From NCBI GenBank assembly GCA_019454405.1, contig JACFOH010000008.1, forward strand, positions 6,896 to 49,005: a stretch of 42,110 nt of DNA. The letters run 5' to 3'. Source of the DNA: Promineifilum sp. (GTDB lineage Bacteria > Chloroflexota > Anaerolineae > Promineifilales > Promineifilaceae). Shown piece after piece: positions 30,046 through 41,088 of the stretch. Under the pieces are notes generated by a model. The model made no database searches. It saw nothing but the letters and a program-made list of their open reading frames with translations, and was not told the DNA's origin. The position numbers and the translations under genes are program-made. Every line of letters starts with the position of its first letter. The stretch's first letter is position 1.

Positions 30046-30240
30046 ATGGAAGAAAAGCGTTTGACTCGTGTGGAAGAAGGGCGAATGATCGCTGGAGTTT
30101 GTACGGGATTGGGGCGATATTTTGGTGTGGATCCGACGATTATTCGGATTCTCTTCCTCCTTTTGTTTCTGTTTGCTGGGGGCGGTGTACTACTCTACCT
30201 GATCCTCTGGGCCATCATGCCCCTCGATAAGGCCGGCTAA
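30046..30240 (+). CDS. PspC-domain small membrane protein
   Basis: 64 residues forming a single PspC domain: RLTRVEEGRMIAGVCTGLGRYFGVDPTIIRILF, written here in pieces as RMIAGVCTGLGRYF and DPTIIRILF, then one membrane helix (FLLLFLFAGGGVLLYLILWAI) and MPLD. PspC proteins sense or respond to membrane stress, or act as toxin-like membrane factors in some species. It is alone between a promoter and a terminator. AGGAGA is 5 nt before the start. The role in this organism is unknown. Confidence 0.92.
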   Translation: MEEKRLTRVEEGRMIAGVCTGLGRYFGVDPTIIRILFLLLFLFAGGGVLLYLILWAIMPLDKAG

Positions 30241-30261: not shown

Positions 30262-30290
30262 TTGCGGGGGCGCCCGAATATATCTATACT
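30262..30290 (+). promoter_or_regulatory. Candidate promoter upstream of the cyclase gene
   Basis: TTGCGG (30262-30267), a 17-bp spacer and TATACT (30285-30290). Transcription would start only a few bases before the hairpin at 30301. Confidence 0.5.
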
Positions 30291-30349: not shown

Positions 30350-33300
30350 ATGATCGAGTCGCTCCTTGCTCTGATCCCGGAAGACAGGCGTATCGCCCTG
30401 GCGAATGGCCTGGAACTCCCCGACCGAACGAATGGTTCAGTTCTGTTCGCTGATATATCCGGTTTCACGCCTCTAACCGCGACCCTGGCCCTGGAGTTGG
30501 GTGTCTATCGCGGTGCCGAAGAAGTCCTTAATCAGATAAACCCCGTCTACGAAGCTATCATCGCCGAGCTTCATCGCTATGGCGGGAGCGTTCTGGGGTT
30601 TGCCGGCGATTCCATCACCTGCTGGCTCGATGGCGATCGAGGAGAGCGTGGCGTCGCCTGCGCTCTAGCCATGCAGGAGGCTATGCGGCCTTTTTCCACC
30701 GTGCAAACGCCGGCCGGCACCTCGATTTCCCTGGCTATTAAAGTTGCTGTCGCTGCAGGGCCGGCGCGTCGCTTCGTTGTTGGCGATCCTGATATCCAAC
30801 TCATCGACGTGTTGGCCGGACGGACGCTCGATCACGTGGCTGCTGCCGAGAAGTTGGCGGAGAAAGGCGAAGTGATCGCCAGCGAAGAGATCATTGGCGC
30901 CATCGACGGTGGCGCGCTCAGCGATGATTACGAAGTTGTGGAATGGCGCACGGCCCCTGCCGGAGAGCGCTATGCTGTCGTTGGCAGTCTCAGACGTTTA
31001 TCGGAACCCACTCGTCAAATAGATGTATTCACCGGAACATTATCAAGCGAACAAGCCCGCGCCTGGACGTTGCCGCCTGTGTACAACCGTCTATTAAGCG
31101 GCAGTAAATTCCTGGCTGAGCTTCGTCCCTCGATCGCGCTTTTCCTGAAATTCTCCGGCATTGATTACGATCATGATGACGATGCGCAGCAGCAGCTTGA
31201 TCGATTTGTTCGTTGGATGCAAGCCATCGCTCAGGCTCAGGGTGGTTTCCTCATCCAGTTGACGATAGGCGACAAAGGTAGCTACGCTTATTTCAGCTTT
31301 GGCGCGCCGGTAGCTCATGATGATGACAGTCTCCGTGCCGTTGCCGCAGCCATTGATCTTTTGAGAACGCCGCCCGAATTGAGCTATATCTCTGGCATCC
31401 AAATCGGCATCAGTCGGGGGCGGGTGTGGGCCGGGGAGTGTGGCGCCCGTAGCCGTCATACCTACGGCGTGATGGGGAATGAGGTCAATATGGCGGCGCG
31501 GCTCATGAGTCACGCTCAGCCGGGCCAGATCCTTGTTCGGCGTCGTGTGGCGGACGAGACGCGGCAGGTATTTCAATTCCGACAGTTGGGCTTGATTGCC
31601 GTCAAGGGTGGCGCCGAGCCTATCCCCGTTGCTGAATTGCTCGGCCGTCAATCTGCGCAAGAGAGCCACGGTTCATTATTTGAGATGCCACTAGCCGGCC
31701 GCACAAACGAACTGGAGCAATTGGGGCGGATGCTGGATGGCGTGTTGACTGGTCGGGGTCGCCTGGTTACGTTGCAGGGGCCGACGGGAATCGGTAAGAG
31801 CCATCTTATCTCTGTATTCCGGCAATACGCCGGCGCTAATGGCTTTCAGACAGTGACGGGGTCGAGCCAGAGGATCTTCCAATCCACGACTTACTACCCC
31901 TGGCAGCAGATTATTCGCCAGATTTTTGGTTTGAACGAGCGAGTGGCTGGTGCAGAGGGAGAGATAGATGCGGCTGACCAGATCGCCACTCTTGAATCAA
32001 TATTGACCCAGATGAATCAGGATTGGCAAATACGACTCCCATTGCTTGGCGATCTGCTTGGCCTGCCTATCCCCGATAATCCCACAACGGCCGCTTTTGA
32101 CCCGAAGCAAAGACAGGAATCCTTATTTGCTTTTGTAGTCGAGATCCTTCGAGCTTGGTCGCATTCCCAACCTTTGTTGCTGGTCTTCGAGAACGCACAT
32201 TGGCTGGATGAGCCATCGCATAACTTGCTCGAGGTATTGGCCAAGGCCACGAGCGATGTCGCTATTATGGTCGTCGCTGTTACACGACCTCTTGTGGAGG
32301 ATGATCCACAGCTTCCCCTCCTGACGACCTTCGGCCGCCTTGAGAACCATCAACAGATCCGGCTTGGTGAACTCGATTCGGTGGGGATCCAGCGCTTGTT
32401 GGAGGACTTATTGGGCGGCCCTGTCTCCTTACTGGCGAGACTCTTGATCGAGGCAAAAGCCCAGGGCAACCCTTTCTTTGCTCGTGAACTCGTTGATACT
32501 TTGCGCGAATCCGGCCAATTGTTGTCGGAGGACGGAACATGGGTGCTTTCCAGCGAGATGATCGATACGATGCGCCGGGCTAATATCCCGGTGCAGGATG
32601 AAGAAACCTGGGATCCGGCCAAATCGGCTGATCTGTCATCCATCAATCTGGGTATCCCTGATTCAGTTCACGGGGTGATCCTCGCCAGGATCGATCGTCT
32701 GCCTGAGTCACATAAGCCCACGCTCAAGGTTGCCAGCGTCATTGGATACAGCTTTGATCTGGGACTAGTATCGCGGGTCCATCCGCTGAAGCCATCGGGG
32801 CGGCTCCTCCGCGCCCAGGTCAACGACCTGGAGACCCGCGATTTTATCGCGCAGGATTGGCAGGGACACGATGGTGGAGAGCCGGCCACTTTCGTCTTTC
32901 GACAGCAAGCGATACAGGAAGTTTCCTACGAGACCTTGTTGTTTACCCAACGCCGCGAGCTCCATGGCAATCTCGCCCGGTTACTTGAGGAACTGACTCC
33001 TGAAGCTGTTGGCCAGATCGCTTACCATGCGTTTTTAGGTGAAGATTGGGAACGCGCGCTTCGCTATCACCTGATAGCCGGGAACCAAAACAAACAACTC
33101 TTCGCCAACCTGCAGAGCATCGACCATTTTCGCAAGGCTTTGGCGAGCGCTGAACAGTTCCCGGCCGAAGAAACCCTTGGCCGGCGCCAGGAAATCCACG
33201 CCAATTTGGGAGAATTGCTTGTGAACAGCGGCCAGAACGATGCCGGACAAGAACACTTGCTGACGGCTTTCGCTCTCGCCGGGCAAACAGGGGACTCCGA

Positions 33301-34411
33301 GGCACAAGCTTCCGCTTGCCGATGGATGGCCAAAGCTTATGAGATGCGTGGGCAATACGAACCGGCGTTGGAATGGATCGATAAGGGGCTGACTATCCTG
33401 GGGGATCGTCTTACACCGTCGGCTATCGAGTTGCGGCTTATCTCCGGCCTTATCTTCTCTCGCCTCGGGGATAATAAGCGCTCGGAACAGCAAGGCTTGG
33501 CCAGCCTTCAGGCGGCCGAGGGGTTGGGGCAACCAAGGATCGTCGCTCGCGCCCATAATCTCCTGGGAGTTCTCGATCGCAATCGCGGGTTGGCCAATGA
33601 CGCTGTGGCCCATTTCGAGCAGGCGATCGCGCTGTATGAAGGACTGGAGGATCTCCACGGACGAGCAATAACCCAGAATCTAATCGCCAACGCCTATTTC
33701 GATATGGGACAATGGACGGAGGCGGATCGTTATTATCGCCAGGCCGGGTATATCTTTAGGCAATTGGGTATTGTTTACGACACTATCTTTGTCGATAATA
33801 ACCTGGGGGGCATCGCACTCAACCAGGGTCGTTTCGATGATGCTTTACAGTTTTTGGGCCGCGCTCTTAAGGCTCTGGAGCAGATAGGTGGGTCTCTGTG
33901 GGTTATGGGCGCGCTGCACTTGAACCTGGGAGCAGTGAATATTCGTGGAGGCGAGATTGCCCTTGCCTTTGAACACCTGCGTAAAAGTCAGGAATTATTC
34001 AATCGCGCCAAGACCCGCGATCTACTGCCGGAAATGCACCGACGTTTTGCGGAGGCTTATCTGGCTCAAAGCGAATTTAGTCACGCTCGTGAAGAAATTG
34101 CTCAATCACTTGCCATCGCTGAAGAACTGGACGTCATTGGCGAGCAAGGTTTGACCCTGCATGTAATGGGCGTGATCGCCGCGGCTAAAGGCCTGCCCGC
34201 CGAAGCCGAGCAGGATTTCGAAAAGGCGATCCGACTCCTAAGCGATGTAGGGGATAACTATGGTCTGGCCTGTGCCCAGCTATCGCTGGCCGAGTTATCC
34301 GGGTATGAGCGAGAGGACAGCCGCCGGCAGAAACTCCTGGGAGAATGTTTGCCGATCTTTGAGCGACTTGGCGCTCAGGTTGAACTAGAGCGCGCCCGAG
34401 GCTTGTTGTAA
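30350..34411 (+). CDS. Soluble-adenylyl-cyclase-like protein: two cyclase domains, NTPase, TPRs
   Basis: 1353 residues. Cyclase domain 1 (~29-190) has the metal-binding Asp35 (FADISGF) and Asp87 (GDS). Where Asn and Arg are expected it has Asp161 and Ala165. Domain 2 (~260-395) has Lys267 in place of the first Asp (LKFSG) but keeps Asn380 and Arg384 in GVMGNEVNMAARL. The two thus look like complementary halves of one active site. A STAND/AAA-type NTPase follows: Walker A GPTGIGKS at 477-484, Walker B-like LLLVFENAHW. The last ~400 residues are TPR repeats. This is the order of animal sAC (ADCY10) and of many bacterial cyclase-regulator proteins. Cytoplasmic cAMP or cGMP production is inferred. 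No Shine-Dalgarno sequence is seen before the ATG. Confidence 0.88.
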   Translation: MIESLLALIPEDRRIALANGLELPDRTNGSVLFADISGFTPLTATLALELGVYRGAEEVLNQINPVYEAIIAELHRYGGSVLGFAGDSITCWLDGDRGERGVACALAMQEAMRPFSTVQTPAGTSISLAIKVAVAAGPARRFVVGDPDIQLIDVLAGRTLDHVAAAEKLAEKGEVIASEEIIGAIDGGALSDDYEVVEWRTAPAGERYAVVGSLRRLSEPTRQIDVFTGTLSSEQARAWTLPPVYNRLLSGSKFLAELRPSIALFLKFSGIDYDHDDDAQQQLDRFVRWMQAIAQAQGGFLIQLTIGDKGSYAYFSFGAPVAHDDDSLRAVAAAIDLLRTPPELSYISGIQIGISRGRVWAGECGARSRHTYGVMGNEVNMAARLMSHAQPGQILVRRRVADETRQVFQFRQLGLIAVKGGAEPIPVAELLGRQSAQESHGSLFEMPLAGRTNELEQLGRMLDGVLTGRGRLVTLQGPTGIGKSHLISVFRQYAGANGFQTVTGSSQRIFQSTTYYPWQQIIRQIFGLNERVAGAEGEIDAADQIATLESILTQMNQDWQIRLPLLGDLLGLPIPDNPTTAAFDPKQRQESLFAFVVEILRAWSHSQPLLLVFENAHWLDEPSHNLLEVLAKATSDVAIMVVAVTRPLVEDDPQLPLLTTFGRLENHQQIRLGELDSVGIQRLLEDLLGGPVSLLARLLIEAKAQGNPFFARELVDTLRESGQLLSEDGTWVLSSEMIDTMRRANIPVQDEETWDPAKSADLSSINLGIPDSVHGVILARIDRLPESHKPTLKVASVIGYSFDLGLVSRVHPLKPSGRLLRAQVNDLETRDFIAQDWQGHDGGEPATFVFRQQAIQEVSYETLLFTQRRELHGNLARLLEELTPEAVGQIAYHAFLGEDWERALRYHLIAGNQNKQLFANLQSIDHFRKALASAEQFPAEETLGRRQEIHANLGELLVNSGQNDAGQEHLLTAFALAGQTGDSEAQASACRWMAKAYEMRGQYEPALEWIDKGLTILGDRLTPSAIELRLISGLIFSRLGDNKRSEQQGLASLQAAEGLGQPRIVARAHNLLGVLDRNRGLANDAVAHFEQAIALYEGLEDLHGRAITQNLIANAYFDMGQWTEADRYYRQAGYIFRQLGIVYDTIFVDNNLGGIALNQGRFDDALQFLGRALKALEQIGGSLWVMGALHLNLGAVNIRGGEIALAFEHLRKSQELFNRAKTRDLLPEMHRRFAEAYLAQSEFSHAREEIAQSLAIAEELDVIGEQGLTLHVMGVIAAAKGLPAEAEQDFEKAIRLLSDVGDNYGLACAQLSLAELSGYEREDSRRQKLLGECLPIFERLGAQVELERARGLL

Positions 34412-34424
34412 ATCATGGCTGTAC

Positions 34425-34468
34425 GCAAGAGGGCAAGATGACGCTCAAACGTCATCTTGCCCTCTTGC
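34425..34468 (+). terminator. Strong terminator between convergent genes
   Basis: A perfect 19-bp stem (34425-34443 with 34450-34468) and loop CTCAAA, followed by TTGTTATTT on the plus strand. It ends the cyclase transcript. On the minus strand no T-tract follows, so termination of the opposing gene is less sure. Confidence 0.8.
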
Positions 34469-34511: not shown

Positions 34512-37500
34512 TTATCGACGACTTCCCATGATGGCCGGTATTCTGACGGCCGACGTGGATTCCAGCGAGTTGAACTGATAACCATCATCGATGGCTGCCA
34601 TGCTCGTATCCAGACCGACCCCGACCTGGGCGATGTAGTTGCAGGACTTGCCATTCTCATCTGTCGTTGCAAATGCAATAGTATAGACTCGGCCGTTACC
34701 GGATTCGTCTCGCTCAGATCGCAACATGACTTGAGCGCTATCGTGGATTTCGGCATCAGGATATAGACCTACTGGCTCGTCTTGCCATACGCCCAGAAGC
34801 GTTACGTGGTCCGAGATGCCTGGCCCGGTGAAGTTCACTGCATGCATCAATCCGTCGACAGGCGACAGTGTTGACAGAGTCGCATTGATTTCGCGGCATA
34901 CGTTGTTCTCGTTCCCGTCGCTGACATACGTCCCCGCCAGGCGACCGGTGGTATCATCGTCGATGAAATAACCCTGGATGAGTAGATCATCTGCGGAACG
35001 CCCACCTTGCCTTGATGGCTCTGACCCTGAGCGACCCTGGGTGAGTTCTGTCATGACGACATCATCAAACTCATAAATGGTCCCGTTCTGGCCATAGGGC
35101 GACAACCAGAACCTGAGTCGTGTGTCGTTTGTTGCCGCGCCGAAATTACCGGTCGTGAAGTCCACGATAAATACCTTCCAATCTTTGGTCAGATCCAAGG
35201 TCGCCCCGTTCAGCCCCAGGTTGGTATAAGGCGCCGAATGGCGATGGAGGAACAATTGCATATCCTCCCCGTTGCTTGCGCGCGCCGCCAGACGAAGCCG
35301 GTAGGATGTATTGGGTTTCACGGTGAAACCGGTCTGGAATAATTGGACGTTCGTACCCCGCTGCGTGACCGTGATTTTTGCATTGTGGGTACATTCATAC
35401 GGTTGACCAGTCACGACGTTGAATGAACCTGGCTTGTCGGAGAAGAACGACCAGAAGCTTTTGCTTGCTTCGAATCCCGGGTTTTTGATCAGATTCCCAC
35501 TGATCGGGTCGCCACATTCGCCTGGGCCGGGAGTGGGAGGTGGTTCAGGGCCCGGATCGGGGTTGCCACCTCCTCCGGCCGGTTGTAGGACTACGCGGTC
35601 GATATAATACACTGTACCGGCTGCGTCATAAGGTGCGAACCAGAAGCGCAATCTGCCGTCCGTCAGGTTGGCGGCGTTCGGCGTCGTGAACGATATCGTG
35701 TAGGTCTTCCAGCTCGTGGTCAAGTCTACGATATGATTGGCGATGCCATAATTGGTGTGGGGCGCGCCGTGCTTGTGCAGGAATATACTCATATCCCGGC
35801 CGTTATTTGAGTAGGCGGCGAAGGACAATTCGTAATTTGTATTAGGCTGTAGTGTTAACCCGGTCTGATACAACTGGACATTGCTACCTGGCGCATTGAT
35901 GATCATCTTCGCTGACGTCGCGCCCGCATAGGGATTCGTCGATTCAAGGCTGTAATTGCCTTGCCCGTCTGTGAAGAACTTCCACGGCGCGGCGCTGTTC
36001 TGGAAGCAGAAGTTAGCGATGATATTGCCCGGAACCGGGCTGCAATCGTCGCTGCCGCTATCAACGGTTGCGGCGATGGTGAAGTAGTTGCCATGATTCA
36101 TCAGCGCCGATACATTGCCGGCGTTATCAACTGCCTGTACAAAGTATTCATACTGGCCGGCTTTGTTTATATTGACTGTCTTGGAGGCCTCCAGTGTGTT
36201 CTGATTGTAATCCAGATCCACCCGTGACCAGGTATGGCTGTCAACGTGCCGGTAGAGGACGACGACGCGCATAATCCCGGTTGCGGCTGCGTCCTCCGGT
36301 AAATTGGCGCCAGGATCCGGGTCTTCAACCAGCGCATTGAAGGTAATTTTACCGCTCGAGTTAGACGCGGCCGAAACAGCCCAGATCGAAGGTGACAGGA
36401 AATCGAGAGAATTTCCCAACTCACCACTACGGGCGCTATAGACGAGCAACTGCAGATCGCTATAGAGCCGCATCGTGCCTACGGTGCTGGGGCTATCAGC
36501 TGTCGATGTCGCATGGAATTGCCCTGGGACGACGACCAGTTGCTGCCTGAACAGAGAGGCCCCTTTGCTGATGTCCGTCATCCGATTCACGCTGGCGGGC
36601 ATTGTCAAATACCATTGAGGTACATCGTAGCGAAGTTCTTCCTCGCCGTTGGCCTGGTCTGTTGTGGTATCTTCGAAGTTGATGCCTAGAATGGCCGGAT
36701 CGAAGTTCTGTTCATCCGTGAATGTGCCGCCCAACATCAAGACGCCGCGAGCGGTATGGGTATCTGAACTTAGATTTAGAGTCGTTCGCGGCAGGATCGG
36801 CCGGCTACCCGTGCGATGGAGATCGGTTTCATTCTCGATCTGGTAATAGTGACCCCGGTTGGGCACGGATACCGATTCGTAACTGAACGTCAGGTTGAAT
36901 GGCGTTTGCGTCAGCCCCGGCACGGCCGTGGAGGCCCTTGTACTGCTATTGAGCATGGCCTGATCGGCCGGCGCCATCCTGTTTCCTGGAGCTGTCAATG
37001 AGACGCTATTGCCTTGTGGAGGTACATGGGTTTGTGCCGGCAGTACGACTGACTGCATAGGTAGGCCATAAAGTACCATCTCGCCAATGATTTTCTCGTC
37101 GTAAACGCTGAACGATCCGGCCGCGATACTGTTATAGTATCGCTTCTTGGCCTCCATCAGAGAGTGCCCGACCGTGGAATTTTGACTCTGTGGACCGCCA
37201 GGTTTGTAGCCCAGTTCCTCGACGAAATTAAGCATTAGCGATTCGGAGTAGGCCAATAGATCCGCGTCGCCATAGCCAAAGCCGGTATTGCCGATGAATG
37301 TCGCGCCGTTGCGTGCGAACATCTGCGCCCAGTCGGAGCCGAGGAACGGCGTTCCCAGGTTGAAATAGTTGTCGCTGACGTTCAAGCCCGATTGGCAACC
37401 AACCGAGAAGACCAGCGCGCCGGCCAGGTTGTAACTGCCTCCGCTTAGTTCATCGGCGAAGACCAGATTGTTGGCTTCGTTCCGGGATCCATTGGGAAAG

Positions 37501-40500
37501 AATAATTTATGGTCGAAGTGGGAGTTCAGTGAAATCAGATCGTATCGCTGATTATTGAGCAATAGATTGCGAAAGTCATCGCCGCGCCATTGGTCGTTGA
37601 TTAGGGTCGTCTGGTTCTGAATGCCGCGCGCACTAAGTTCAGTTGAGATCGCGTCCGCTTGATCGATGAGGAAATCATACCCCGTTATCAGGGCCGATGA
37701 AGGCTCAATGGTTTCGTTGCCGTTCAGATACACGTCGATCAGGTTCATGATCTCCGTTGGCGTTTCCACCAATCGGCCGATGCTATATTGTGGCAGATAT
37801 ACTTCGCGGCCAAAGGCGCTAAGAGGTAGCGGCGCCGCGTAGTAATCGTCGATCAGAAAATAGCGATTGTCATAAGCGGCCGCGATCGCTGGATCCAATG
37901 GAACGTTGTCGTCGGCCAGATAATCAAGATATCGACGCTGGTTGGCCACCAGGGTGTTATCGATAATGCGTCGATGGGGCAACATCTCGTCATTGCCGAT
38001 CAGGACGATGTTCTCCAGGTTAGGGTAGGCCATGATCTGATCGTACAGGAATGCCTTGATCGTCCTCGCTACCAGATTGGCGGTTTGCGGGTTCTGGAAT
38101 TCGTCCGGGGTGTTCTCGTCCCAAAGCCGGTAAGCGCTTCGTAAGGCGAAGTTGCCGCCTGTGGTTTGGACCTCGTCCAGATTGATCACCAGTCCGCCTA
38201 CTGACGGATCCGCTGCCAGGTCAGACAATTTATCCGCCAGAGCATCAGCTTCGTTGGAAGATAGGTCGTACTTTTCTGTAAAACGAGCTTTGTTATAGAG
38301 GACCAAAGTTCGGACACCTGGATTGGTCGCAGGCGTTACGAAATCCGTCTCAGGAGATGTTGTATTGATCGGTACCGGAGTGTCCGGCGGATCCACCGTG
38401 ACAGTCAGGGTGAAGGGCTGGCTGACGGCCGTGGGATCGGCCGCCACTACCGCTACGTAATAAGGCCCTGCCAGTTCATGTACATCGTAGATGATCTGCT
38501 CGTTGCCGTTATCCGGATCGTTAGCGGGTCCCTCTTTGACTGATATGCCGACCATCGTCCCGTCTACGTTGTCGCGGGCGATATTGCTGATCTGGGCGAT
38601 GTTGCTCAGTTGCGCGATATTGGATATTTGGGCGATGTTACTGAGCTGGGCGATGTTGCTGATTTGCGCCAGATCGATGATCTCTCCGATGTTGGATAAC
38701 TGAGCGATATTAGACAACTGGGCGATGTCGCTGAGCTGGGCGATGTCGGATAATTGAGCGATGTCGCTGAGCTGGGCGATGTCAGATAGTTGGGCCAAGT
38801 CTCGTAGCTGGCCTGTTTCCTCGTTGATAGCCGGCGCGAAAAGATAGAGGTCGTAATCAAAATTGCTTTGTAGCGCCATGGTGATGATTGAGCCCGGCGC
38901 TCCCACAACAAACCGGTAGAAATTGGGATCGGTCGGGTTATCGGCCGCGTCGACGATTGGGATGTCCAGAGGTACGGGATCGGCCTCATCGCGACCGGCA
39001 TTGGTCTCGGGCCTTTCGTACGCACCGCTGTCGCAATCCGCCTCATTCGGTCGCGCTGCGCCTCGTTGGTCAGTGGATGGGCAATGACCGGCGACGCCCG
39101 TGGAGATTGCCGGGCTATCTTTACCGATGGCCATCGTTCGGGTAGGACCACCGTTTTCAGCCAGAGGCTGGAGTAATGGATCGCCTGTGGTTCCAGGGCA
39201 GCCGCCGCCCTCAAAATTGATGTTACCTGCTTCTGAATCGGCGCCACCGCTACAGTTCGACTCCACCCCGGCCCCATCCATAATGCTGTTGTAAACATTG
39301 AGGGTGGAGGACACTCCCCGATACCAGGAATCGCCTTGTATTTGGGCAATGTTATCGGCAAATGTGACGTTTACGATATCCATCGTCCCCGAGAGAGCGG
39401 CGAGGGCTCCGCCATCCTGACCCTGGTTGTTATAGAACGTACTGTTAATGACGCCAAAGTATGTGGCGTTGCTGGCGATTGCTCCCCCGGTGCCGCTTTC
39501 GTTTCCTTCGAAAGTGCTGCCTCCAACAGTAACGATCCCGCCCGGTGTTGGGTCCCATTCGTTGCCGGTATAGATCGCGCCACCGGCCGCCGCCGCCCCC
39601 TCCTCTGTTTGCCACCCGGTAGCTGTGTTGGTTGTGAACGTGCTGTCGTTTATGTTTAGTGATCCGTCCGTGTCGTTGTCAACGCAGATAGCGCCGCCGC
39701 CCCATGAAGCGTCGTTGTTTATAAATACGCTTCGGTCAATAGATATGCTGGAGTGGCTTGCCCTGCTGCTGTAGCCCTGACCGCCGAAGATAGCCCCGCC
39801 ACACTCATTCCAACTGTTAAATGAGTCAACACCGTCAGACGATTGATTGCCCGCAAATGTGCTATTCAATACATTCAGAACGCCTCGTATGTTGGCGATA
39901 CCGCCCCCCCAACCCCACGCGACGTTATTTTGAATGACGCTGTCTCGAAGTGTCAGCGTTGCGGCATGGTTGCGGATCCCTCCTCCGGAATCGTTGGTTA
40001 TCCCGCCCTGGATGATGACACCGTTGATCTCGACCTCCAGGTGTGAGGGATCATCTCCTTCATAGCCCATTGGGTAGATATCGATGATGCGACCATCGTA
40101 TCCAATATTCCCCTCGATAATCGGCGCTGTATTCGCTTCAGGATGCCTCTCGATAATCACACTCTTATGGATATCCAGATCGCCTGACTCGTTGGAGTCA
40201 TCCATGTCTCCCATGTAGTCGGTTGCGAGCGCATACGACCCCGCTGGTAGGAAGATCTTATAGACGAAATCAGGATCACTTTCTTCATTGGATTTGGTGA
40301 TCGCGCCGCGCAGGCTGCAATCGTTTGGGGCATCCGAACAAACCTGGGCTTCCGGCTCATTGGTGTCGTCGAAGCGATCTACCACGATGACCATATCCGA
40401 TTCAAGCCCCTTTACGGGATGCCTACCGGATAGCAGCGCTACGGTTAATAATAAGCCCAGGATCAGGATTGGGCGCCAGGTGATGGGGTTAGGTGACATG

Positions 40501-40520
40501 GATGGACGGGGGCGAAGCAT
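34512..40520 (-). CDS. Giant secreted modular protein with C25 (gingipain-like) peptidase domain
   Basis: 2002 residues. A signal peptide (~10-40) is followed by a CSLREC-type segment (CSLRGAI), a parallel beta-helix region (~150-430), a choice-of-anchor-Q-like STDQRGAARP...CDSGAYE, and a PPC-like beta domain (~530-565). Next come 12 tandem hexapeptides (~575-646). The C25 peptidase-like domain (~735-1165) has a probable dyad of His1001 (LNSHFDH) and Cys1042 (SVGCQSG). Ig-like regions follow, then two similar carbohydrate-binding-like modules (~1500-1655 and ~1675-1825) joined by a Pro/Gly linker, and a C-terminal beta domain. No C-terminal anchor is evident, so it is probably released or held by its glycan-binding modules. 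The ATG at 40520 has GGAGA 6 nt upstream; one at 40526 is too close to it. Confidence 0.85.
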   Translation of the reverse strand: MLRPRPSMSPNPITWRPILILGLLLTVALLSGRHPVKGLESDMVIVVDRFDDTNEPEAQVCSDAPNDCSLRGAITKSNEESDPDFVYKIFLPAGSYALATDYMGDMDDSNESGDLDIHKSVIIERHPEANTAPIIEGNIGYDGRIIDIYPMGYEGDDPSHLEVEINGVIIQGGITNDSGGGIRNHAATLTLRDSVIQNNVAWGWGGGIANIRGVLNVLNSTFAGNQSSDGVDSFNSWNECGGAIFGGQGYSSRASHSSISIDRSVFINNDASWGGGAICVDNDTDGSLNINDSTFTTNTATGWQTEEGAAAAGGAIYTGNEWDPTPGGIVTVGGSTFEGNESGTGGAIASNATYFGVINSTFYNNQGQDGGALAALSGTMDIVNVTFADNIAQIQGDSWYRGVSSTLNVYNSIMDGAGVESNCSGGADSEAGNINFEGGGCPGTTGDPLLQPLAENGGPTRTMAIGKDSPAISTGVAGHCPSTDQRGAARPNEADCDSGAYERPETNAGRDEADPVPLDIPIVDAADNPTDPNFYRFVVGAPGSIITMALQSNFDYDLYLFAPAINEETGQLRDLAQLSDIAQLSDIAQLSDIAQLSDIAQLSNIAQLSNIGEIIDLAQISNIAQLSNIAQISNIAQLSNIAQISNIARDNVDGTMVGISVKEGPANDPDNGNEQIIYDVHELAGPYYVAVVAADPTAVSQPFTLTVTVDPPDTPVPINTTSPETDFVTPATNPGVRTLVLYNKARFTEKYDLSSNEADALADKLSDLAADPSVGGLVINLDEVQTTGGNFALRSAYRLWDENTPDEFQNPQTANLVARTIKAFLYDQIMAYPNLENIVLIGNDEMLPHRRIIDNTLVANQRRYLDYLADDNVPLDPAIAAAYDNRYFLIDDYYAAPLPLSAFGREVYLPQYSIGRLVETPTEIMNLIDVYLNGNETIEPSSALITGYDFLIDQADAISTELSARGIQNQTTLINDQWRGDDFRNLLLNNQRYDLISLNSHFDHKLFFPNGSRNEANNLVFADELSGGSYNLAGALVFSVGCQSGLNVSDNYFNLGTPFLGSDWAQMFARNGATFIGNTGFGYGDADLLAYSESLMLNFVEELGYKPGGPQSQNSTVGHSLMEAKKRYYNSIAAGSFSVYDEKIIGEMVLYGLPMQSVVLPAQTHVPPQGNSVSLTAPGNRMAPADQAMLNSSTRASTAVPGLTQTPFNLTFSYESVSVPNRGHYYQIENETDLHRTGSRPILPRTTLNLSSDTHTARGVLMLGGTFTDEQNFDPAILGINFEDTTTDQANGEEELRYDVPQWYLTMPASVNRMTDISKGASLFRQQLVVVPGQFHATSTADSPSTVGTMRLYSDLQLLVYSARSGELGNSLDFLSPSIWAVSAASNSSGKITFNALVEDPDPGANLPEDAAATGIMRVVVLYRHVDSHTWSRVDLDYNQNTLEASKTVNINKAGQYEYFVQAVDNAGNVSALMNHGNYFTIAATVDSGSDDCSPVPGNIIANFCFQNSAAPWKFFTDGQGNYSLESTNPYAGATSAKMIINAPGSNVQLYQTGLTLQPNTNYELSFAAYSNNGRDMSIFLHKHGAPHTNYGIANHIVDLTTSWKTYTISFTTPNAANLTDGRLRFWFAPYDAAGTVYYIDRVVLQPAGGGGNPDPGPEPPPTPGPGECGDPISGNLIKNPGFEASKSFWSFFSDKPGSFNVVTGQPYECTHNAKITVTQRGTNVQLFQTGFTVKPNTSYRLRLAARASNGEDMQLFLHRHSAPYTNLGLNGATLDLTKDWKVFIVDFTTGNFGAATNDTRLRFWLSPYGQNGTIYEFDDVVMTELTQGRSGSEPSRQGGRSADDLLIQGYFIDDDTTGRLAGTYVSDGNENNVCREINATLSTLSPVDGLMHAVNFTGPGISDHVTLLGVWQDEPVGLYPDAEIHDSAQVMLRSERDESGNGRVYTIAFATTDENGKSCNYIAQVGVGLDTSMAAIDDGYQFNSLESTSAVRIPAIMGSRR
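38583..38798 (-). repeat. Twelve 18-bp tandem repeats encoding a hexapeptide solenoid
   Basis: 216 bp inside the C25 protein gene encode 12 consecutive units of the type I-A-Q-L-S-D/N, with one divergent unit (IGEIID). Each unit fits the left-handed beta-helix hexapeptide rule [LIV]-[GAED]-x-x-[STAV]-x, except the fifth position of the divergent unit. Codons vary between units, so it is an old or selected repeat and not a fresh slippage product. Confidence 0.85.
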
Positions 40521-41088
40521 GTTCATTCTCCATTATCGATCGTCTGTTGATCGCTATTATTTGCGCAGATGCGTCGATTGGGCGCTGCTTGCGCAGGCGC
40601 CAGTAGACGATTGTCGTGGCTGGCTGTATATGACACAAAGTGCATTCCAGACTGTTGGTTTTAGCGAATCGACGGGGTGCGTTTAATGCCTGCTGCCACC
40701 CGTTGATGAAGCCGAGATTGCGATTAGAAATTCTACGTCTCTTTTTCTTGATAGAAAAATATTATGCAGGGGATTTTCACCGGTTTGTTATCTCGAACTC
40801 ATGAGCATAAGCTGTTTCGCTTATGAAAGCAGATAGGAGATCTATTTGTATCGTGCGGTGCTGGACAAATTGCCTCCTGTTGTTTGAGCCGTAGCACTCG
40901 GATCTTGTTTCGCCTCACTTCAGGACGATCATTGCCCACTTCGATGAAAAATGAGTAACATATCAGTTGAGACTCAACGGTCATACCACTAGAAACGAAT
41001 CACGAGCGGCTAGCTCAACGCGCCAGACATGATCCAGCATAATGGGGCGCTCATTTGTTTGTCGTCAATATGATAAGGAGAACGGCCT
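40521..41088. other. 568-bp divergent intergenic region
   Basis: No convincing gene. It contains the Shine-Dalgarno sequence GGAGA of the C25 gene (40531-40527), a minus-strand leader hairpin (40581-40601) with GCAA loop, a hairpin CATAAGC/GCTTATG (40806-40825) without T-tract, an AT-rich stretch near 40735-40765, and AAGGAG (41075-41080) for the E1 gene. Short reading frames here have no supported ribosome site or family. Confidence 0.5.
40581..40601 (-). promoter_or_regulatory. Leader hairpin with GCAA tetraloop before the C25 gene
   Basis: On the minus strand, GGCGC, a bulged C, TGC, loop GCAA, then GCA and GCGCC form an 8-bp stem about 60-80 nt before the start at 40520. Confidence 0.35.

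Follow-up and report, generated by a model that had tools for sequence, protein, structure and literature searches.

Bacterial cyclases resembling the soluble adenylyl cyclase of animals (sAC, ADCY10) have been known since 2004, when Kobayashi, Buck and Levin described such an enzyme from Chloroflexus, which, according to later papers citing that work (PMC11006738; PMC3085406), was reported to be stimulated by bicarbonate. For the Plasmodium enzyme ACbeta (PfACbeta) it was reported in 2012 that the motifs are spread over two sAC-like domains (PMC3383692). Human sAC possesses a C-terminal autoinhibitory motif beside its putative nucleoside triphosphatase (NTPase), for which a paper on signal transduction ATPases with numerous domains (STAND) is cited (PMC6023465). 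Here we describe a gene with a comparable layout in a window of 42,110 nucleotides (the whole stretch of DNA analysed) from contig JACFOH010000008.1 of Promineifilum sp. (Chloroflexota). Its product, hereafter the query, is probably a soluble split-site (sAC-type) class III nucleotide cyclase that provides the output of a STAND ATPase, a reading based on conserved residues and predicted structures. As far as can be judged from the title of the 2004 report and the reviews citing it, the architecture as such is already known, and it is also common: a match at E 1e-30 or better was obtained in 48 of the 59 related genomes. The finding is, therefore, less unusual than was supposed in the first-pass annotation of this window.

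The proposal of that annotation that two cyclase domains (C1 and C2), an NTPase with an intact Walker A motif and C-terminal tetratricopeptide repeats (TPRs) occur in one chain was borne out by Pfam and by comparison with human sAC. Pfam detected Guanylate_cyc in the second cyclase domain alone (residues 317-420), AAA_16 at 448-639 and many TPRs from approximately residue 950 on. C1 was revealed by comparison with solved structures; in a single-sequence search of the PDB human sAC was the top match (E 1.8e-26), in two collinear stretches (25-180 and 243-432), which merged into one continuous stretch (E 7e-50) when a profile of 80 sequences was used. An orthologue is present in all eight genomes of the genus and the cyclase domains are under strong purifying selection, with a ratio of nonsynonymous to synonymous polymorphism (pN/pS) of 0.14-0.24, which confirms that the observed layout and its half-sites are real and far beyond chance. 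The source assembly comprises 2.2 Mb in 118 contigs with an estimated completeness of 71%, and among the names of its closest relatives are Promineifilum sp., Ardenticatenia bacterium and Anaerolineae bacterium (Chloroflexota).

The residues of the catalytic site are divided over the two domains. With the functional residues of human sAC taken as given in PMC12867704 and PMC12250328, and with gap-free aligned blocks around these positions, D35, D87, D161, A165, N380 and R384 of the query correspond to D47, D99, D173, L177, N412 and R416 of human sAC. C1 carries both metal-binding residues (Asp35 and Asp87), the catalytic Asn and Arg being replaced by D161 and A165, and C2 carries Asn380 and Arg384, Lys267 replacing the first metal-binding Asp. 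All of these residues, as well as the open reading frame itself, were found exactly where the first-pass annotation had placed them. C2 has lost only the first metal-binding Asp; the one in second place (D308, in GDKG) is retained, and both human sAC (FDKG) and 76 of 82 relatives have it as well. These relatives were gathered by a whole-protein search in which motifs were not used for selection. Among them D35, D87 and N380 are invariant, R384 occurs in 80 and the Lys of C1 that contacts pyrophosphate (K131, human K144) in 74, whereas the vacated positions 161, 165 and 267 vary; the full complementary pattern, i.e., metal-binding Asp on C1 and Asn/Arg on C2, is found in 76 of the 82. Since a second set of 80 sequences from named genomes had been retrieved by means of the patterns LFADISGF and F[AS]GD..TCW, the presence of D35 and D87 in 80/80 of its members partly reflects the selection, and these two positions were judged on the set of 82 alone. 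In single-domain relatives with a cyclase, AAA_16 and TPRs and with readable motifs, both halves of the site reside in one domain. One further sequence (L180) was rejected as a single-domain protein, since it starts at a contig end and represents a truncated C2.

The predicted structure of residues 1-440 is of high quality (predicted local distance difference test, pLDDT, 92.8; predicted template modelling score, pTM, 0.92). Foldseek gave human sAC for each of its first 24 matches (E 1.3e-31 to 1.3e-27), and membrane adenylyl cyclases came next. VIA-align also gave human sAC as the best match (Z 39.4 over 418 residues, root-mean-square deviation 2.8 Å), ahead of AC9 (Z 35.4), AC5 (Z 32.4) and single-domain cyclases (Z 21-24), and the match includes the C1-C2 arrangement, since this alignment spans both domains. 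The predicted structure, when superposed on sAC, contains the C1-C2 interface on which the first-pass annotation had made its proposal of one composite site per chain depend, and together with the complementary pattern in the relatives it upholds that proposal. Conservation and predicted fold jointly show that both metal-binding Asp would come from C1 and the Asn/Arg pair from C2, the two halves meeting at one predicted C1-C2 interface. A domain pair of this kind might also have become a pseudo-cyclase that binds a nucleotide as sensor or regulator of the STAND module and does not cyclize it, for which a precedent exists in the two-fold, class III cyclase-like ATP-binding protein of Pseudomonas (6yii, Z 24.4 against residues 1-440) and which would agree with the swap of the base-recognition pair in the subfamily discussed below. 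We consider this unlikely: all residues required for the chemistry are retained (both metal-binding Asp, K131, Asn and Arg), a fixed Asn/Arg pair beside drifting vacated positions is not expected of a pure binding domain, and the active human enzyme matches far more closely than 6yii does.

The pocket for the base differs from that of sAC. In the alignment, which is free of gaps here too, the base-contacting residues K334 and T405 of human sAC correspond to Gln303 and Gly373 in C2 of the query. Relatives with at least 40% identity in the cyclase unit share Q303/G373 in 29 out of 40 cases, whereas the more distant paralogues mostly (35 of 42) possess R or K at 303 plus T at 373, like the human K and T; in the second set Q occurs at 303 in 71 and G at 373 in 70 of the 80 sequences. 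The query belongs, on these alignments, to a subfamily with a conserved pocket that differs from that of sAC. In the open literature we found no description of a Q/G-pocket subfamily that lacks both the bicarbonate residues and the sAC base pair. Most simply, the substrate would be ATP, but the choice of base is not settled because the base-contacting pair of sAC is replaced. Another product, i.e., cyclic GMP or a cyclic pyrimidine, is conceivable, though not probable; this is a variant of the cyclase reading rather than its competitor, so that the confidence in the two overlaps. The conservation of Q/G in the subfamily, as opposed to R/K and T in the distant paralogues, speaks for it, but the match of Pycsar cyclase models is weak and confined to the generic C2 region, and Q/G differs from the Glu/Cys pair usual in guanylyl cyclases. 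It is a similarly speculative idea that the Q303/G373 subfamily constitutes a separate branch, occurring in Chloroflexota and several other phyla, in which the sAC chassis with a rebuilt pocket may have come under STAND control and yield a product other than cyclic AMP (cAMP) or have relaxed its choice of base. The anti-phage system Pycsar, brought up by PADLOC matches, was rejected for this locus: the PycC models match part of C2 only, at E 6.7e-9 or weaker, and the neighbours scanned encode household functions, a PspC protein and a surface protein, but no Pycsar-type effector. The best NCBIfam match, TIGR03903 (TOMM kinase/cyclase fusion), scored 174.5 against a cut-off of 705.75, so the query is not a member of that family.

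The first-pass annotation also raised the possibility of sensitivity to bicarbonate, which did not hold up. Gly83 and Ala164 stand where human sAC has its bicarbonate residues K95 and R176, again in blocks aligned without gaps, and none of the 82 plus 80 bacterial relatives has an Arg in the column of R176. The position of Thr405, a residue thought to predict bicarbonate regulation (PMC3383692), is taken by Gly373, so that the query has none of the residues that mark class IIIb, bicarbonate-regulated sACs. Lys95, Arg176 or both are missing in many non-mammalian sACs too, and a 2026 study reported that the sACs of sea urchin and of salmon, each without one of the two, are responsive to pH but to neither bicarbonate nor calcium (PMC12867704). 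Because of these replacements, regulation by bicarbonate via the human site is unlikely as judged from the alignment. That the query is nevertheless a bicarbonate-gated, sAC-like sensor, as reported for the Chloroflexus enzyme with which, according to the description cited in PMC11006738, it shares phylum and layout, seems to us very improbable in view of the same losses and of the unresponsive animal enzymes.

Downstream of the cyclase unit the query carries the features of a STAND protein: a motif of the hhGRxxE (hhGRExE) type at 448-455, where it reads LAGRTNELE, an intact Walker A (GPTGIGKS, residues 477-484; 31778-31801), a Walker B with E614 and D620, R646, a GxP motif (GNPF, 706-709) and a fold running from nucleotide-binding domain (NBD) to winged helix. 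In 60 relatives G450, R451, GxxGxGK and W618/D620 are invariant. For residues 440-1353 (pLDDT 91.3, pTM 0.85) the best Foldseek match is 6mfv, a STAND protein with a TPR sensor (E 4.7e-12). With VIA-align the NTPase part matches MalT (8bob, Z 22.9 over 369 residues) and Apaf-1 (3sfz, Z 21.2 over 379 residues), and the TPR part matches domain III of MalT (1hz4, Z 31.3 over 360 residues). The predicted model of residues 440-1353 is that of a MalT/Apaf-1-like STAND ATPase ending in a MalT-like TPR superhelix.

These parts suggest how the protein might work. Binding of a ligand or protein partner to the TPR arm would be followed by exchange and turnover of ATP in the STAND module, which would relieve autoinhibition or drive oligomerization; the cyclase would then produce a 3',5'-cyclic nucleotide, which cyclic-nucleotide-binding proteins of the same genome could read. 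Of the gating by the NTPase put forward in the first-pass annotation, the placement after the cyclase domains stands; the gating itself we infer from the class to which the fold belongs and from the autoinhibitory motif beside the putative NTPase of human sAC (PMC6023465), and ligand-driven nucleotide exchange and oligomerization of the STAND module are likewise no more than inference. Cyclic nucleotide signalling is probably present in this organism, given that its genome contains two cyclase genes besides the query and five genes with cyclic-nucleotide-binding domains. A possible receptor encoded in the same genome is L171 (G000:C92), in which an ABC-transporter ATPase is joined to two cyclic-nucleotide-binding domains. 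Some points weigh against a STAND-controlled cyclase: with Q303/G373 in place of K334/T405 the protein might act on another substrate, have low activity or bind a nucleotide without converting it; no ligand was found, nor any functional connection with a cAMP receptor; and the neighbouring genes offer no obvious partner except for the PspC gene.

The trees constructed from the separate cyclase domains, in which all bacterial rows are relatives within the query's own class, bear on the origin of the split site. Human C1 is nested within the bacterial C1 clade (support 100/100), and human C2 within the bacterial C2 clade of two-domain proteins, apart from the single-domain cyclases (100/96). The bacterial rows nearest to human are, for both halves, L051, L072 and L083 and not the clade of the query; L051 and L072 retain Lys in the columns of K95 and K334 and Thr in that of T405. 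In the first tree human C1 joined C1 of L065, which carries a risk of long-branch attraction, and a rebuild without L065 gave the same nesting (93/92 for C2), the immediate neighbours being less well supported (83/95 for C1). Since the human branches are long, the exact bacterial neighbours of the human domains are uncertain. The agreement of the two halves would fit one ancient C1-C2 fusion, and because human C1 and C2 each nest within the corresponding bacterial clade the split site looks inherited and not convergent. The nesting further suggests that an active site split over two domains is older than animal sAC. With bacterial rows from the query's class only, the tree is silent on which bacterial group supplied the gene of animals.

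The features of the locus are compiled in Table 1.

Table 1. Features of the cyclase gene and its upstream region (positions in the window; residue numbers refer to the query)
Feature	Position	Strand	Evidence
Whole gene, 1353 aa, C1-C2 cyclase + STAND NTPase + TPR superhelix	30350..34411	+	Open reading frame, ATG start, translation
C1 cyclase domain, ~residues 25-215	30422..30994	+	Human sAC alignment, conservation, predicted fold
C2 cyclase domain, ~residues 250-435, GDKG loop 307-310	31097..31654	+	Pfam Guanylate_cyc, human sAC alignment, conservation
STAND/AAA_16 NTPase, ~residues 448-740	31691..32569	+	Pfam AAA_16, motif conservation in 60 relatives, fold
Helical/winged-helix linker region of STAND module, ~residues 741-930	32570..33139	+	Predicted structure; MalT (8bob) and Apaf-1 (3sfz) matches span the region
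TPR superhelix, ~residues 931-1353, likely sensor	33140..34408	+	Pfam TPR; match to MalT domain III 1hz4
Promoter-like CTATACT	30284-30290	+	Present in 8/8 genus orthologues
Strong hairpin/palindrome, 15-pair, ~10 nt after CTATACT, just 5' of start codon	30300-30332	+	8/8 genus orthologues
PspC-domain small membrane protein directly upstream of cyclase, same orientation	30046-30240	+	

The stems of the upstream hairpin have diverged among the eight orthologues (folding z-score -2.2 to -5.4), and the pair of CTATACT and hairpin is found once in the genome; the palindrome is either a leader hairpin or an operator. The PspC-domain gene precedes the cyclase in seven of the eight genus genomes. In the remaining one (L011) the PspC pattern was not found upstream, though the stretch resembles a diverged PspC by eye, and no such linkage was seen in the other genera checked. 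Behind the gene a 19-pair perfect hairpin with a T-rich tail (34425-34468) lies between the convergent cyclase and surface-protein genes and is probably a bidirectional terminator. No Rfam family reached its threshold, and matches to mir-31 were spurious, produced by this long perfect hairpin. In the surface-protein-like open reading frame (2004 aa; 34512-40526, minus strand) carbohydrate-binding domains (CBM_4_9) are accompanied by a series of short repeats of the AQLSDIAQLSNI type.

Bacterial chains with this order of parts could serve as a tractable model of a STAND module that gates a cyclase. Such a model matters since the role of the NTPase and the C-terminal region of mammalian sAC is poorly understood, and mammalian sAC has been described as challenging to express (PMC12867704). 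Furthermore, the loss of the bicarbonate residues and the swapped pocket make both the choice of base in a C1-C2 site and the question of what regulates sAC-type enzymes without a bicarbonate site directly testable.

Compared with known systems, the query resembles animal ADCY10/sAC most in its tandem C1-C2 with complementary half-sites, its DKG loop in C2, the Asp at the first vacated position of C1 and the putative STAND-type NTPase downstream. It differs from human sAC in being bacterial, in an identity of only 22-24% over the cyclase unit and in the replacement of all of K95, R176, K334 and T405. The Chloroflexus enzyme of 2004 belongs to the same phylum and, according to its title and citing reviews, has a conserved sAC-like domain structure; likeness and difference rest here on description and not on sequence, the difference being the bicarbonate stimulation reported for that cyclase. 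Plasmodium ACbeta likewise has two sAC-like domains but retains the Thr that has been taken as a predictor of bicarbonate regulation (PMC3383692). With the single-domain cyclase-AAA_16-TPR proteins of the same bacteria the query shares the combination of cyclase, NTPase and TPRs in one chain, whereas those cyclases hold a complete site in one domain and are presumably homodimeric. With MalT, Apaf-1 and 6mfv, finally, it has the STAND motifs, the NBD-to-winged-helix fold and the MalT-like TPR superhelix in common, but where STAND proteins of the MalT/Apaf-1 type carry a DNA-binding or CARD domain, the effector of the query is a two-domain nucleotide cyclase.

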